DNA of 32,274 bases, taken from Thiotrichaceae bacterium. GTDB lineage: Bacteria > Pseudomonadota > Gammaproteobacteria > Thiotrichales > Thiotrichaceae. The notes under the pieces were generated by a model, which had not been told where the DNA came from, made no database searches, and saw only the letters and a program-made list of their open reading frames with translations. Shown one piece after another: positions 23-28,331 of this stretch (the stretch's first letter is position 1; each line of letters opens with the position of its first letter). Position numbers and translations under genes: made by a program. The DNA lies in contig JALWMR010000225.1 of the NCBI GenBank assembly GCA_027083815.1, positions 1-32,274 of the forward strand. Direction: 5' to 3'.

Positions 23-124
23 TAAAAAAAGTACACCCCCCACCTTTTTTACGGTTTTGTCGCCCTACGGGTTGTCGCGCAAGCTCCGACATTGTCTCGC
101 TTCGCTCGGCTTGCCCTTTTCTCC
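23..124 (+). repeat. GTACACCCCCC/CCCTTTTCTC repeat, copy 1 (long form)
   Basis: TAAAAAAAGTACACCCCCCACCTTTTTTACGGTTTTGTCGCCCTACGGGTTGTCG...ACATTGTCTCGCTTCGCTCGGCTTGCCCTTTTCTCC. Confidence 0.85.
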
Positions 125-5715: not shown

Positions 5716-6546
5716 TTATTTCCTATTAAACTGACGACCTTTGACACGTAAAAGAGGCACAAAGTCAGCAGCACAACGCATTTGAGGTATCCAGCGCGCC
5801 AAATTATTCGCCGTGAAAACACGTCCTTCGTGTTCATTTTCAAAAACACCATCATGGAATAACACCACACCATCACGACCTTTGCCACCACACATCTGTT
5901 TCATCACATTGTCCAGAATCTGGTCACCATGTTGGTATTTTTCATTCCAGTCGTAGGCTGTCATTTCCCAACCAAGGTGTTCAAAGCCATTGCGTTTAAG
6001 CGCCTGCATTACCTGCGGGGCCTGTTTTTGATTGAACCAGCCATCACCATAGGGCAATCGAAATATGGCTGGCTGGGTAGTGAAGTAAGGTTCCAGGAGT
6101 TGATGCGAATGAGCAATGGTTTGCTGTAACTGTGCTGGCGTTAGTTTTGAATGATGATAATGTTCATAACTATGCGAGCCAATCTCATGACCTTCACGCT
6201 TGATTCGCTTTAAAGTGGCAAGACGCTGCTGACAAAGTTTATAAGACTTTGTGCCGACTTGATATTTTCCACAATCAATTTTGTTCCCTAAAATCAGAAA
6301 AGTTGCTTTAATGTGCTCGCGCTTTAAAATATCCAGGATTTTTGGTGTAACACTGCCCACACCGTCATCAAAACTCAAATGCAGTTTATGTTTTTTAACC
6401 GGACAATGGTACTTGGCACGAACCGCATTACAATCAACCGCATAGGCCGTTGAAAGACTGAACAACAGCAAAAAAACAGCGATTAACAGAGAAAAGGCGG
6501 GCCAAGCGAAGCGAAACAATGCCAGAGCATGGCGACGACAACCCAT
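5716..6546 (-). CDS. Polysaccharide deacetylase family protein, secreted
   Basis: HLSFDDGVGSVTPKILDILKREHIKATFLILGN and GHEIGSHSYEHYHHS; signal peptide core FSLLIAVFLLLFSLSTAYA; ORF open to 6594, internal ATG at 6546 is an alternative start. Confidence 0.88.
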   Translation of the reverse strand: MGCRRHALALFRFAWPAFSLLIAVFLLLFSLSTAYAVDCNAVRAKYHCPVKKHKLHLSFDDGVGSVTPKILDILKREHIKATFLILGNKIDCGKYQVGTKSYKLCQQRLATLKRIKREGHEIGSHSYEHYHHSKLTPAQLQQTIAHSHQLLEPYFTTQPAIFRLPYGDGWFNQKQAPQVMQALKRNGFEHLGWEMTAYDWNEKYQHGDQILDNVMKQMCGGKGRDGVVLFHDGVFENEHEGRVFTANNLARWIPQMRCAADFVPLLRVKGRQFNRK

Positions 6547-6593
6547 AGGGCGACAAAACCGTAAAAAAGTGGGGGGGTGTACTTTTTTAATCA
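6489..6593 (-). repeat. GTACACCCCCC/CCCTTTTCTC repeat, copy 3 (long form)
   Basis: Reverse strand AAAAAAGTACACCCCCCCACTTTTTTACGGTTTTGTCGCCCTATGGGTTGTCG...CATTGTTTCGCTTCGCTTGGCCCGCCTTTTCTC, closely matching copy 1. Confidence 0.85.
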
Positions 6594-6661
6594 TTTATTA
6601 GCCCTTACAAAGATATAAATGAATGCTCAATATCGTGCATTGCAAACAGGAAATGACTGTT

Positions 6662-10709: not shown

Positions 10710-10800
10710 ATTTTCCACGAAAATCGGCGCAATAGAATGACTATTACGTCTCTCTTCATGAAAAATAGCAACAATTTTTTCTGCGCTAAATTCTAATCAA

Positions 10801-10836
10801 CTTAATCAGGGCTTCCTTAAGGAAGTCCTGATCAAG
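10801..10836. repeat. 36-bp near-perfect palindrome upstream of secA
   Basis: CTTAATCAGGGCTTCCTTAAGGAAGTCCTGATCAAG; only two of 18 symmetric base pairs mismatch. Confidence 0.8.
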
Positions 10837-10868
10837 ATAATTATCATAAGCTTGCTAAAACTGTTGCT
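10819..10868. repeat. Direct repeat unit B upstream of secA
   Basis: AAGGAAGTCCTGATCAAGATAATTATCATAAGCTTGCTAAAACTGTTGCT; matches unit A. Confidence 0.65.
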
Positions 10869-12370: not shown

Positions 12371-12428
12371 AGCCTTTTGGTAAAAAGCCATGAAAACTTG
12401 TCCAAATAAACCTGATATAGGTATTAAC

Positions 12429-12461
12429 AAGTACACCCCCCACCTTTTTGCCACTTTTCTC
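12429..12461 (+). repeat. GTACACCCCCC/CCCTTTTCTC repeat, copy 4 (short form)
   Basis: AAGTACACCCCCCACCTTTTTGCCACTTTTCTC. Confidence 0.85.
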
Positions 12462-17636: not shown

Positions 17637-17680
17637 TAAAAGTACACCCCCCACCTTTTTGGCTTTTATTCCCTTTTCGT
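17637..17680 (+). repeat. GTACACCCCCC/CCCTTTTCTC repeat, copy 5 (divergent right end)
   Basis: AAAAGTACACCCCCCACCTTTTTGGCTTTTATTCCCTTTTCGT. Confidence 0.75.
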
Positions 17681-17749: not shown

Positions 17750-20700
17750 TTAAAAACCCGGGTAACTGCCGTCATATAGGTCTTCTTCTCTAAATGTCAA
17801 ACTTCTTAAATCATAAACATTCTGTCCATCAATCAGTTCAACCTCTAGACTTGTAACTGAATCTTCCAAGGTGTATCCATATTCATCAAATGGCATATCA
17901 ATGGGGAACGCGGCTACAATTAAAGAGCGGACATTTTCAAACCCTCCTGCATCCATAAAACTAACATCCAGAGTGTAATTACCTGTAAAGTAACTACCAG
18001 TAACGGGGTAGTCCGGATCTATTGTTCCATCATTTCTCCTGATAAAAATAACAACCTCAACCTCTGTACTATTTCGTACACGCTGATGCCCACCACTTGG
18101 CAGAGTAACAATCTTATAAATATTACCGCTTACACGAATTGAAGCATCCATAGACTGGCAAGAGAACGATGTACTTCCATCATCATTTGTAATCGTTGAT
18201 TCAAAATAGCCTGGTAGACATGCATCTGGTTTTGCCATATCAACAGTAACAATATTACTTATATCCCAGGATTCGGCCGGATCAAAGGCATTTAAAACGG
18301 TGTAATCTTTGGTCCATTTAAAACCTCCTTCCTCAATTTGTCTGGTTGCAAGACCTATGCCTATCAAGCCTTCTTTACCAACCTCTCCTGAGTTTTCTAC
18401 CAGCCCAGTAGCCAGGGCAAATTTTCTGTGTCCATAGCTACCACTGGTATCTGCTTTATCGGCATAAATCCATGCGTAAACAGCCTTGGCAACAGATTCA
18501 TACAGGGTCGGATACTGATTGCTTGCTCCACGACCTCGATAGGCCAAGTTCTCAGCATACTGGAAGAAGTCCGCATTACCACCATTTCCAACAGTAACTC
18601 CAGCTTTCGTAGCCAGTCGCTCACCGGGATTTGACCCATCTTCATAGTGCCCGAAGACATCATTGGCAGCTAGATAGTCAGCATAATACTGAGCCGGAGA
18701 AGTAACCACCTCGGGAGAAATACCTTCAAATGGGCGGATTCCTCTGGCACAGCGCTCGCTATTAAGAAGATAAAGGGCTTTTTGCGAATCAGTATAGCCA
18801 TCCCATACCGCTTGCTCTGGTAACTTTAATTGCTTTCCAGAAACAATCGAACTATCCGTGGCCCTAGCAGTATTAAATACAGATTCAATATCTGCCGTAG
18901 TCAGTGCAACACCATCCATATTAGATGGCCATGGTAAGTCATCGACACTTCCAGATATGAATGAATCCGCAAAGTTTGCCTCAGTCTGTTCGGTTGCTGG
19001 GCAAGTGTAAGCAGCTGCAACTGGTGCTTCTATAATCTGCACTTCACGGGTAACTTGCGTCGCAGCATTTCCAGAGGAATCATTAACATCATAAGTTATA
19101 ACAAACGTAGTCCCAACGTCAGCACTGGTATCTACTGTATCACCACCAATAACCACATCTCGCGATGAAATACGATCAACATTATCCTGAACAGTAACAC
19201 CCGGATCAACAAACTCACTGCCCTGTACAACCGTCATGGGAGAATCGCCAAGCAAGGTGATGACGGGAGCCGTAATATCTCTGACAACAACCGTTAAGGT
19301 AGCAGTGACAAGCCGTTCAAATTCATCAGTAAATGTGTATTCAAGTGCGTATTCACCGGGTGTTGTCAGATCAACACTCGCCTGGTTAGTAAATGTTGGC
19401 GTACCATCAACCGGATTATTATCAGCGTCAACTACCGATGCATTAAATGCAAGTTCTTCATAGAAGAACGTTCCAGGATCAACATCCTCATCAACATAAT
19501 AGGGGTTGGTTGCAAACACAATACGATATGGAGCTGGCAAAGCCACATTAACATCGACTGTATCAGTTGACGTTTTACCTTGGTTATCCCTAACCTTCAG
19601 GGTCAGGGTATGCGTACCAACTGAGTCAGGTGTATAAGAATAGCTAATACCTGTCGCAAGCAGTGCGCCATCAGCATCAAGCCACTGATACTCTACAATA
19701 TTACCATCCGGGTCATTTGAGGCGGAGCCATCCAGAGTAACAGTTTCACCCAATACGATATCTTTGTCAGCCCCGGCATTTGCAACAGGTGCGACATTTT
19801 GCTGAGGCGTTACTATCACATCTAAACGATCATCAACAAGACCATTACCGAACTGGTTGGTATATTGAATATCAATAAAGGCATTGCCAACCACATTGGG
19901 GTCAAAAGACTCTTCGCTAACTTCAAAATAACCTGAAAAGTCATACTGGTAGGCAGCATCATTATGCACATTGCCTGCATAGTCATAAACCACAATATTA
20001 GCTTTTAACCAATTATAAAAGTCCTGTCTATTAGCGTATGTGCCGGCTTCAATGGTCAATGGATTTCCAAAGGGAAAGGTCATCTGGGCTGGTTCGGTAA
20101 GTGCTGGTAGTATGGTGATTTTGACATCATCAATAGCTGTTGCGCCATCATTGTCCGTAACCGTCAGGCTCAGAATAACATCACCTAGATAATTGCTTGT
20201 ATCAAAATCAAATGATGCAGTGGTTGCATATTCATAATTATAGTTTGCACTTGTCCAGCGATAACTGGCTATAGTGCCGTCTGTGTCTGTACCCGTTCCT
20301 GTTAAGGTAACAATATCCCCCCTGCGAACGGTAATGTCCTCACCTGCATTGGCAGTTGGTGGTACATTTTCAATGCTTGACAGGAGCTGAATATCATCAA
20401 CTCGACCGCTACCACGAATTAAAAAGGCTTGCACGGCTAATACCGTATTATCAGGTTCAAACTCTTTTAGATCAGCTTCAAGGTCACGGGTGTATGTATG
20501 CCACAGCCCATCTTTTGAATTCACACCAAGACCATGATGGATATAGCGGCCCGACGCACCGCGAATACCCCTATCTGTATCACTGGCGGTATAATAGAGA
20601 TAACGTGGGCCAGTTGTCGTCGTTACACGAACAAACACGGTATAGGCTTCACTGTATTTCATACTCCAGCGAATATTCTTGTTTTGAGTATCATTCCAGG

Positions 20701-22483
20701 CACCTGAGTAATTTTCCCAATTACCTAAAATATAGCCATTTCGACTTGCATCCCCTTGAAGCTGAATAACCCTGCTTTCCCTGTCTGCATCAACCACATT
20801 GCTGATAGTGGCACCAGCGGGAGTTTTATCATAGACACGCCAGCCCAATGTATTGCCATCTTCAGCATCCTCATAAAGCATACTGCCATCTGCGGACAGC
20901 ACACGTACGGTACGTGAAACATTTGCAGAATTACCCATCTGGTCGATTGCTGTATAACTTATTACATAAAACCCCGATTTTGAGGTATCGACACTTCCTT
21001 CTATAGAAACGGTCACAGGACCATCAACATAATCAACCGCGTTAGCGCCTGCATCAACATAATTATCACCCACGGAAAGATCTATTTGAGACTCTCCATT
21101 CAGCGTTAATACTGGAGCCGTTGTATCAGGAATGGTTAATCCACTGAGTAACTCAATATCGTCAACACGCCCACTGCCTCGAATCAGGAATGCCTGAACT
21201 GCCAACAAATCATTCCCAGGCTCAAAATTCTTTAAATCAGCTTGAAGGTCACGCGTAAAAGTCCGCCATGTTCCATCTCGCGCATCACTGCCAAGACCAT
21301 AGTGGATATAAGTCCCATTGCTATGTAAACCTTTATCCGTATCGCTGGCAGTATAATAAATATAACGAGGCCCATTGGTAGTCGTAACACGAATATACAC
21401 CGTAAATGCTTCGCTGTATTTCATGCTCCAACGGATTTGATTATTTTGGCTGTCATTCCAGGCACCCGAGCGGTTTTCCCAATTACCCAAAATATAGCCA
21501 TTGCGGGTTGAGTCGCCTTGAAGCTCTATGACTTTACTGCTTTTTTCAGCATCGTCCACATTACTAATTGTGGCCCCGGCGGGAGTTTTATCATAGACAC
21601 GCCAGCCTAATGTATTTCCATCTTCGGCATCTTCATAAAGCATACTACCGTCTGCTGAGAGCACCCGGACGGTTCTGCTTGTGCTTGATGAGTTGCCGGC
21701 CTGGTCAGTCGCTGTATAGGTTAGAACATAAAAACCCGATTTTGAGGTATCGACACTTCCTTCTACAGAAACGGTTACAGGTCCATCAACATAATCAACC
21801 GCGTTAGCGCCCGCATCAATATAATTATCGCCTACAGAAACATCAAGTTGTGCGTCACCATTTAGGGTCAATAGCGGTGCTGTTGTGTCTGGTATCTCAA
21901 GACCATTTAGCAGCTCGATATCATCAACGCGCCCACTGCCGCGAATAAGAAAGGCCTGAACGGCTAATAACTCATTAGCAGGTTCAAAGTTCTTTAAATC
22001 AGCCTGTAAATCACGGGTAAACGTTTGCCATGCTCCGTTTCTTGCTCCTGCGCCAAGGCCATAGTGAATATAAGTCCCATTACTATTCAAGCCTCTATTA
22101 GTATCGCTAGCGGTATAATAAATATACCGAGGACCATTATTTGTAGTAACACGAATAAATACGGTGAACGCTTCAGTATATTTCATGCTCCAGCGAATTT
22201 GATTATTCTGGCTATCATTCCAGGCACCTGGTCGGTTTTCCCAACTCCCCAAAATATAACCATTATTTGTGCCGCTGCCTTGTAGCTCAATGACCTTGCT
22301 TCCCCTGTCAGCATCATCAACATTGTTGATATTAGCTCCAGCGGGGGATTTGTCATAAACACTCCAACCTGATACGGTGCCATCTTCAGCATCTTCATAG
22401 GTTTGCGCAAAACCGGTTGTCGTTGTGATAAGCAGAATAAAAAGGGATAGTAAAGTTGCTAACAAGCTTTTATTCACGGGCAT
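17750..22483 (-). CDS. Large secreted modular protein: three related N-terminal modules, Ig-like/PKD domains, CAP (SCP/PR1) domain
   Basis: Signal peptide; repeated EDAEDG...GW.VYDK.PAGA.I.NV...RGSGRVDDI..L; DUF5011-like LTLNGD...VSVGDNYIDAGA; PKD PVANAGADKDIVLGETVTLDGSAS; CAP region LYLLNSERCARG...FGHYEDGSNPGERL...YAENLAY...GSYGHRKFAL. Confidence 0.85.
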   Translation of the reverse strand: MPVNKSLLATLLSLFILLITTTTGFAQTYEDAEDGTVSGWSVYDKSPAGANINNVDDADRGSKVIELQGSGTNNGYILGSWENRPGAWNDSQNNQIRWSMKYTEAFTVFIRVTTNNGPRYIYYTASDTNRGLNSNGTYIHYGLGAGARNGAWQTFTRDLQADLKNFEPANELLAVQAFLIRGSGRVDDIELLNGLEIPDTTAPLLTLNGDAQLDVSVGDNYIDAGANAVDYVDGPVTVSVEGSVDTSKSGFYVLTYTATDQAGNSSSTSRTVRVLSADGSMLYEDAEDGNTLGWRVYDKTPAGATISNVDDAEKSSKVIELQGDSTRNGYILGNWENRSGAWNDSQNNQIRWSMKYSEAFTVYIRVTTTNGPRYIYYTASDTDKGLHSNGTYIHYGLGSDARDGTWRTFTRDLQADLKNFEPGNDLLAVQAFLIRGSGRVDDIELLSGLTIPDTTAPVLTLNGESQIDLSVGDNYVDAGANAVDYVDGPVTVSIEGSVDTSKSGFYVISYTAIDQMGNSANVSRTVRVLSADGSMLYEDAEDGNTLGWRVYDKTPAGATISNVVDADRESRVIQLQGDASRNGYILGNWENYSGAWNDTQNKNIRWSMKYSEAYTVFVRVTTTTGPRYLYYTASDTDRGIRGASGRYIHHGLGVNSKDGLWHTYTRDLEADLKEFEPDNTVLAVQAFLIRGSGRVDDIQLLSSIENVPPTANAGEDITVRRGDIVTLTGTGTDTDGTIASYRWTSANYNYEYATTASFDFDTSNYLGDVILSLTVTDNDGATAIDDVKITILPALTEPAQMTFPFGNPLTIEAGTYANRQDFYNWLKANIVVYDYAGNVHNDAAYQYDFSGYFEVSEESFDPNVVGNAFIDIQYTNQFGNGLVDDRLDVIVTPQQNVAPVANAGADKDIVLGETVTLDGSASNDPDGNIVEYQWLDADGALLATGISYSYTPDSVGTHTLTLKVRDNQGKTSTDTVDVNVALPAPYRIVFATNPYYVDEDVDPGTFFYEELAFNASVVDADNNPVDGTPTFTNQASVDLTTPGEYALEYTFTDEFERLVTATLTVVVRDITAPVITLLGDSPMTVVQGSEFVDPGVTVQDNVDRISSRDVVIGGDTVDTSADVGTTFVITYDVNDSSGNAATQVTREVQIIEAPVAAAYTCPATEQTEANFADSFISGSVDDLPWPSNMDGVALTTADIESVFNTARATDSSIVSGKQLKLPEQAVWDGYTDSQKALYLLNSERCARGIRPFEGISPEVVTSPAQYYADYLAANDVFGHYEDGSNPGERLATKAGVTVGNGGNADFFQYAENLAYRGRGASNQYPTLYESVAKAVYAWIYADKADTSGSYGHRKFALATGLVENSGEVGKEGLIGIGLATRQIEEGGFKWTKDYTVLNAFDPAESWDISNIVTVDMAKPDACLPGYFESTITNDDGSTSFSCQSMDASIRVSGNIYKIVTLPSGGHQRVRNSTEVEVVIFIRRNDGTIDPDYPVTGSYFTGNYTLDVSFMDAGGFENVRSLIVAAFPIDMPFDEYGYTLEDSVTSLEVELIDGQNVYDLRSLTFREEDLYDGSYPGF
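20376..20877 (-). repeat. Module repeat unit 3 (partial, lacks following Ig-like domain), approximate boundaries
   Basis: YEDAEDGNTLGWRVYDKTPAGATISNV...RGSGRVDDIQLL; DNA closely matches unit 2 at 762-bp offset. Confidence 0.75.
20878..21639 (-). repeat. Module + Ig-like repeat unit 2, approximate boundaries
   Basis: 762-bp (254-aa) period measured from CGCCAGCC... at 20838 and 21600. Confidence 0.8.
21640..22401 (-). repeat. Module + Ig-like repeat unit 1, approximate boundaries
   Basis: Corresponding position at 22362, again 762 bp from unit 2. Confidence 0.8.
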
Positions 22484-23913: not shown

Positions 23914-23950
23914 TTAAAAGTACACCCCCCACCTTTTTTGCCCTTTTCTC
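23914..23950 (+). repeat. GTACACCCCCC/CCCTTTTCTC repeat, copy 6 (short form)
   Basis: TTAAAAGTACACCCCCCACCTTTTTTGCCCTTTTCTC. Confidence 0.9.
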
Positions 23951-28293: not shown

Positions 28294-28331
28294 TTTAAAA
28301 GTACACCCCCCCACTTTTTTACCCTTTTCTC
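28294..28331 (+). repeat. GTACACCCCCC/CCCTTTTCTC repeat, copy 7 (short form, C7 variant)
   Basis: TTTAAAAGTACACCCCCCCACTTTTTTACCCTTTTCTC. Confidence 0.9.

Follow-up and report, generated by a model that had tools for sequence, protein, structure and literature searches.

The repeat that overlaps the start of a polysaccharide deacetylase gene in the 32,274-nt stretch of DNA analysed here (the window) appears, on balance, to be a coding-sequence copy of an uptake-sequence-like motif that is genus-wide in Cocleimonas, with a module added to this copy in frame. As judged by comparison of genomes, this repeat (copy 3) belongs to a DNA signature that is specific to the species and present in hundreds of copies. 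In the same comparison, the gene start reads as ancestral in most of the genus and the motif as long present there, the inner module being a later addition that is predicted to be translated. A preliminary description had proposed that the repeat supplied the gene with its N-terminus; the overlap of repeat and gene is real, but the proposed history runs in reverse. The features concerned are collected in Table 1.

Table 1. Deacetylase gene features and motif copies in the window
Feature	Position	Strand	Basis or remark
Polysaccharide deacetylase CDS with predicted signal peptide	5716..6594	-	ORF, Pfam, genus and family orthologs
Most likely start codon, ATG	6592..6594	-	Kept in orthologs; Shine-Dalgarno-like TAAGGG upstream
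Predicted signal peptide region	6439..6594	-	Hydropathy scan and ortholog alignment
Uptake-sequence-like motif in CDS (A-tract, GTACACCCCCCCAC, T-tract, TTTT)	6555..6587	-	Encodes KVHPPTFLRF
Inserted module and 3' CTTTTCTC end, boundaries approximate	6489..6558	-	About 63 nt extra, about 21 codons
Motif copy 1 with module, intergenic	26..123	+	Repeat comparison
Motif copy without module, intergenic	12426..12461	+	
Motif copy between convergent genes	17637..17672	+	
Motif copy without module, upstream of probable gltX start	23915..23950	+	
Motif copy without module, upstream of tRNA-dihydrouridine synthase gene	28296..28331	+	

Architecture and distribution of the motif

The source genome (2.78 Mb) falls in Cocleimonas according to named orthologs, and holds 277 forward and 274 reverse matches to AGTACACCCCCCNNNTTTTT (551 with one mismatch allowed), compared to none for the reversed control pattern. 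In the window, the core AAGTACACCCCCCACCTTTTT occurs six times with at most three mismatches, compared to zero in 100 shuffles; over 53 nt, copies 1 and 3 show 94% complementarity, and an Rfam search of the window gave no match. The motif extends over about 33 bp and comprises an A-tract, GTACACCCCCC, a T-tract and a second T-tract one helical turn further on. More precisely, the profile, built from an alignment of 94 copies from 356 kb of the genome, displays weak A-tracts near -14 and -3, AGTACACCCCCC, two variable bases and a C, TTTTT, five bases, TTTT and often CTC, after which the information drops to near zero. Elsewhere in the window, a 50-bp palindrome with overlapping arms (TTCCTTAAGGA centre) adjoins secA (10794-10843), and CCTTAAGGA words similar to it recur beside several motif copies. 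The window also encodes a surface-type protein of 1577 aa (17750-22483, minus strand), in which Ig-like and PKD domains occur and three tandem repeats of about 254 aa, spaced by 762 bp, are 75-79% identical.

The motif is carried by nine of the 12 Cocleimonas genomes searched, including that of C. flava DSM 24830 (G003), each in its own dialect, with spellings such as TATAGACCACCCCCCCTCTTTTTCGATGATTTGTA in G010, ACCCATCCCCCCCTTTTTTTAnATATTTT in G009 and G002, AAGTCACCCCCCTACTTTnAGGnnnTTTTT in C. flava and AAAnGACACCCCCCTACTTTTTGAnnnTTTT in G011. The nine dialects have in common the core, a T-tract at +11 to +15 and a second T-tract at +21 to +25, the latter lying outside the search pattern. 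The loose pattern CAYCCCCCNNNTTT finds 300-740 matches in each of these genomes, with at most six control matches, and 1-16 matches in the motif-poor G001, G005 and G006. In most motif-bearing genomes the top over-represented 10-mers derive from the motif, the top being shared with another repeat in G002, and the motif is absent from the top over-represented words of the other Thiotrichaceae sampled. Short tandem repeats of the CTGTCTTCTGTCCTCTG type adjoin many motif copies in G002 (L176, L221, L222), and one of the top over-represented 10-mers of that genome stems from them.

Intergenic positions predominate among the motif sites, which occupy both strands: 80 of 98 were outside ORFs in G000, though ORFs make up 87.5% of the DNA. 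Over seven genomes, divergent (promoter) gaps contain 23 sites where about 67 are expected, and convergent gaps 104 where about 53 are expected. Inverted pairs are clear in G010 (18 versus 1.6 expected), where the inward pairs have a near-uniform length of about 67 bp, and modest or lacking in the other genomes. A motif standing alone lacks a hairpin, and with respect to co-directional genes neither of its orientations prevails. An apparent strand asymmetry in C. flava (at least 477 versus at least 106, among the matches listed) was rejected, since directly read stretches of its large contigs contain further reverse-strand sites. Upstream of the tRNA-dihydrouridine synthase (Dus) gene, the motif is present in G000 and G009 and lacking in most other genomes; sites therefore turn over. 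Core sequence conservation between C. flava and its relative is 0.855, compared to 0.821 in intergenic controls, an excess so small that it was not used as proof of purifying selection and weighs against the uptake reading. Besides, the Dus gene regions of G001 (L246) and G010 (L248) are nearly identical and share the same in-frame TAG while the genomes are otherwise distinct, which possibly reflects recent transfer or binning contamination.

Modules within the motif

In some copies, among them copies 1 and 3 of the window, the interior is GC-rich and about 60-70 bp long. Matches to this interior were found at 75 places; of the 30 inspected, nearly all immediately follow a motif core, and a few are in tandem with other modules. 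From GTACACC to CTTTTCTC, copy 3 measures 94 nt and module-free copies 31 nt, the excess of 63 nt amounting to 21 codons, in frame and ahead of the hydrophobic core of the signal peptide. The deacetylase orthologs are devoid of the present genome's module, and a module-free precursor would approximately match their length. The G011 ortholog has a different, strongly hairpinned module at the equivalent place, also in an open frame, whose relatives are found after motif cores in G000 and G001, and without the motif in G010. C. flava and the about 87% identical G007 share motif sites that differ cleanly in whether they contain a module of about 53 bp, whereas for the whole motif the about 35 comparable sites of this pair include no clean empty/filled case and one ambiguous case. 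DNA folding predicts strong hairpins in two of four modules, and none in the deacetylase module. Comparison shows the motif to be a site of insertion, around its T-tracts, for short modules of about 53-70 bp, several of which are predicted to form strong hairpins. Among 35 scored copies, a few of them scored loosely, 11 have a length divisible by three and 23 are open in the deacetylase frame; in-frame modules are thus not rare by chance. A two-hairpin module family of about 66 bp (TTAGTGAGCTTGCCGTTTCG...CGACG) was encountered both inside motif copies and alone (L162 and L161 in G010, L092 and L134 in G000, L232 in G001, L039 in G011).

Candidate functions of the motif

The motif is uptake-sequence-like and closely resembles the DNA-uptake signals of Neisseria and Haemophilus relatives. 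The USS of Pasteurellaceae (Hin-USS AAGTGCGGT, Apl-USS ACAAGCGGT) have a core of about 9 nt and two AT-rich tracts at helical-turn spacing, within at most about 32 nt overall (PMC12616744, PMC3630211). Like them, the motif has hundreds of copies on both strands, inverted pairs and species types (PMC12616744, PMC3630211). Unlike USS, it has an unrelated core, CA[C/T]CCCCC, an extra upstream A-tract and a higher information content, is more intergenic, resides in another bacterial order and has modules inserted. With the DUS of Neisseriaceae, it shares genome-wide signature words, species dialects and inverted pairs near gene ends (PMC3630211). However, the DUS is a contiguous 10-12-mer with a CTG core and no phased T-tracts, and its receptor ComP is known in Neisseriaceae, while the Cocleimonas receptor is putative. 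The Cocleimonas motif also has fewer copies per kb than the USS of Haemophilus and is far more intergenic than expected of the intragenic DUS/USS.

As in DUS/USS systems, copies are over-represented by the hundreds on both strands, related species have dialects, the core is accompanied by two AT tracts at helical spacing, inverted pairs occur (clearly in G010), placement is permissive or at 3' ends, and competence genes are present. Genes for ComEC, DprA, PilQ and ComEA were found in G000, although these are not specific to users of uptake signals. In disfavour of an uptake role, competence genes also occur in the motif-poor Cocleimonas genomes and in many bacteria without such signals. The uptake reading is put forward because copy number, strand balance, dialects, phased tracts, placement, inverted pairs and competence genes match DUS/USS; caution is called for because the motif is strongly intergenic and, with 33-48 bits of information, long for an uptake signal. 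On this reading, DNA carrying the motif would be taken up preferentially.

Alternatively, the motif could be a MITE-, REP- or neisserial-intergenic-mosaic-like mobile element of miniature size, whose two ends would be the C-run core and CTTTTCTC and whose cargo would vary, the deacetylase copy then being an ancestral insertion. The high information content, the constant ends with variable and sometimes tandem interiors, the near-uniform inward pairs of about 67 bp in G010, and a site of the C. flava pair (position 55693) where about 40 nt including the motif are missing would fit such an element. Nevertheless, most copies are solo, conservation fades gradually on both sides with nothing shared past about 45 bp, and all copies in a genome, that of the deacetylase included, share a dialect differing from that of neighbour species, which speaks against an old insertion since one drifting alone would not share it. 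In addition, the signal peptide of the motif-free G005 ortholog has 28 residues versus 29 in G003, so that no block insertion is needed, and this alternative is regarded as unlikely. In the neisserial intergenic mosaic elements (dRS3, RS units), short repeats and variable modules of 50-150 bp are found between genes. Unlike dRS3/RS, the Cocleimonas motif is mostly solo and follows dialects, only the modules being insertion-like.

Somewhat less probable still is a site for an abundant DNA-binding protein, involved in chromosome organisation, regulation or termination, whose specificity would shift between species. Dialects and a bipartite, helically phased site would also suit this reading, and 3'-end enrichment and inverted pairs would suit terminators. 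However, several hundred to about 700 strand-balanced copies far exceed the numbers of matS-, parS- or SlmA-type sites, promoter regions are avoided, and the lack of a hairpin in the solo motif and its balanced orientation relative to co-directional genes also count against this reading.

The motif site at the deacetylase gene start

The deacetylase ORF (292 aa), which matches Pfam Polysacc_deac_1 with an E value of 8.9e-26 and has argJ on one side and a Nudix gene on the other, does run through copy 3, as the preliminary description held. Both in-frame ATGs that it pointed out, at 6594 and 6546, exist, and copy 1 indeed reads CCCTACGGG where copy 3 reads CCCTATGGG, the difference to which the 6546 ATG had been ascribed. 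A start at 6546 was rejected because no Shine-Dalgarno-like sequence was seen before it and the upstream start, which TAAGGG precedes, is conserved; the 6546 ATG is probably irrelevant. The predicted signal peptide has FSLLIAVFLLLF as its hydrophobic core and a predicted end at ...STAYA, followed by VDCN, and its n-region counts 33 residues with a charge of +7, compared to 3-11 residues in module-free orthologs. In the G011 and G008 orthologs (L039, L040), the signal peptide ends in LLSAC, a lipobox-like end suggesting that these two may be lipoproteins, unlike the others.

The start codon and the codons of M..HPPxF are common to all eight motif-bearing orthologs read, with an N-terminus M(x)2-4HPP; the G006 ortholog was cut off at a contig end and G004 yielded none. 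The M(x)2-4HPPxF shared by the orthologs makes the 6594 start a conserved one, and the 5' half of copy 3 a long-standing feature of the gene across the genus. Regarding the element-derived N-terminus of the preliminary description, what stands is that about 21 in-frame codons (the RFCRPMGCRRHALALFRFAWPAFS region) would be translated within the signal peptide. What falls is the proposal that the start codon came from the repeat or that the repeat gave rise to the N-terminus: orthologs of seven other Cocleimonas genomes, most of them with few or no copies of the present genome's dialect, begin in the same way. An identical N-terminus in orthologs from repeat-free genomes had been named as evidence against the proposal; the N-terminus is indeed the same, but each of these orthologs comes with its own genome's motif dialect, and the two from motif-poor genomes (G001 and G005) lack HPP. 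Insertion of the repeat at the gene start followed by co-option is thus very improbable: the module part does lie in frame inside the signal peptide, but the start and HPP codons are common to eight orthologs and the start-codon part is already refuted.

The prolines of HPP are encoded by CCC in 15 of 16 cases, compared to a usage of 8-26%, and the single exception, CCT in G011, is what its dialect CCCCCCTAC predicts. The choice between CAC and CAT for the histidine also tracks dialect, CAT being used in G009 and G002, whose dialect is CATCCC. A probability calculated for this codon bias is only indicative, since it took 16 of 16 as the count and treated the genomes as independent. When the sites were scored against the profiles of their own genomes, only 4 of 40,320 permutations were as good, in a test that is confounded by shared ancestry and in which the own profile scores highest at only 4 of 8 sites. 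As the HPP codons track each dialect and the motif-poor orthologs lack HPP, it is a DNA motif that has been kept over the first dozen codons, and a constraint at the DNA level is the simplest reading. That HPPxF is instead a protein feature of the signal peptide, its repeat likeness being a coincidence, is barely credible, for although eight orthologs conserve HPP, codon choice follows each genome's dialect and HPP is missing from the two motif-poor-genome orthologs and the seven orthologs of other genera compared.

Coming back to the uptake reading, the chances seem about even that Cocleimonas represents a third, independently evolved case of self-specific DNA uptake, with a C-run core, species dialects and parasitic modules landing on its motif, one of which would be read into a signal peptide. 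In this model, a putative receptor on the type IV pilus/ComEA/ComEC machinery would prefer motif-carrying DNA, whose recombination would maintain and update copies in tolerant places, mostly intergenic and at 3' ends, and here in a signal peptide. As a second layer, which the genome comparison shows, the in-frame module of the deacetylase lengthens the predicted n-region by about 21 residues. A literature search, mostly without subscription journals, returned uptake-signal repeats in Neisseriaceae and Pasteurellaceae only and no third lineage, no paper joining Cocleimonas with 'uptake sequence' was found, and a text search for the core sequence gave unrelated papers only. The origin and the shift of uptake specificity are debated in the literature. 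If true, nine congeneric genomes whose dialects are graded, that of the cultured C. flava DSM 24830 among them, would provide an independent replicate of such systems in environmental sulfur bacteria, to which a coding site tracking the dialect codon by codon would add. Finally, the modules would show how a mobile insert in such a motif can join a protein with the reading frame unbroken.
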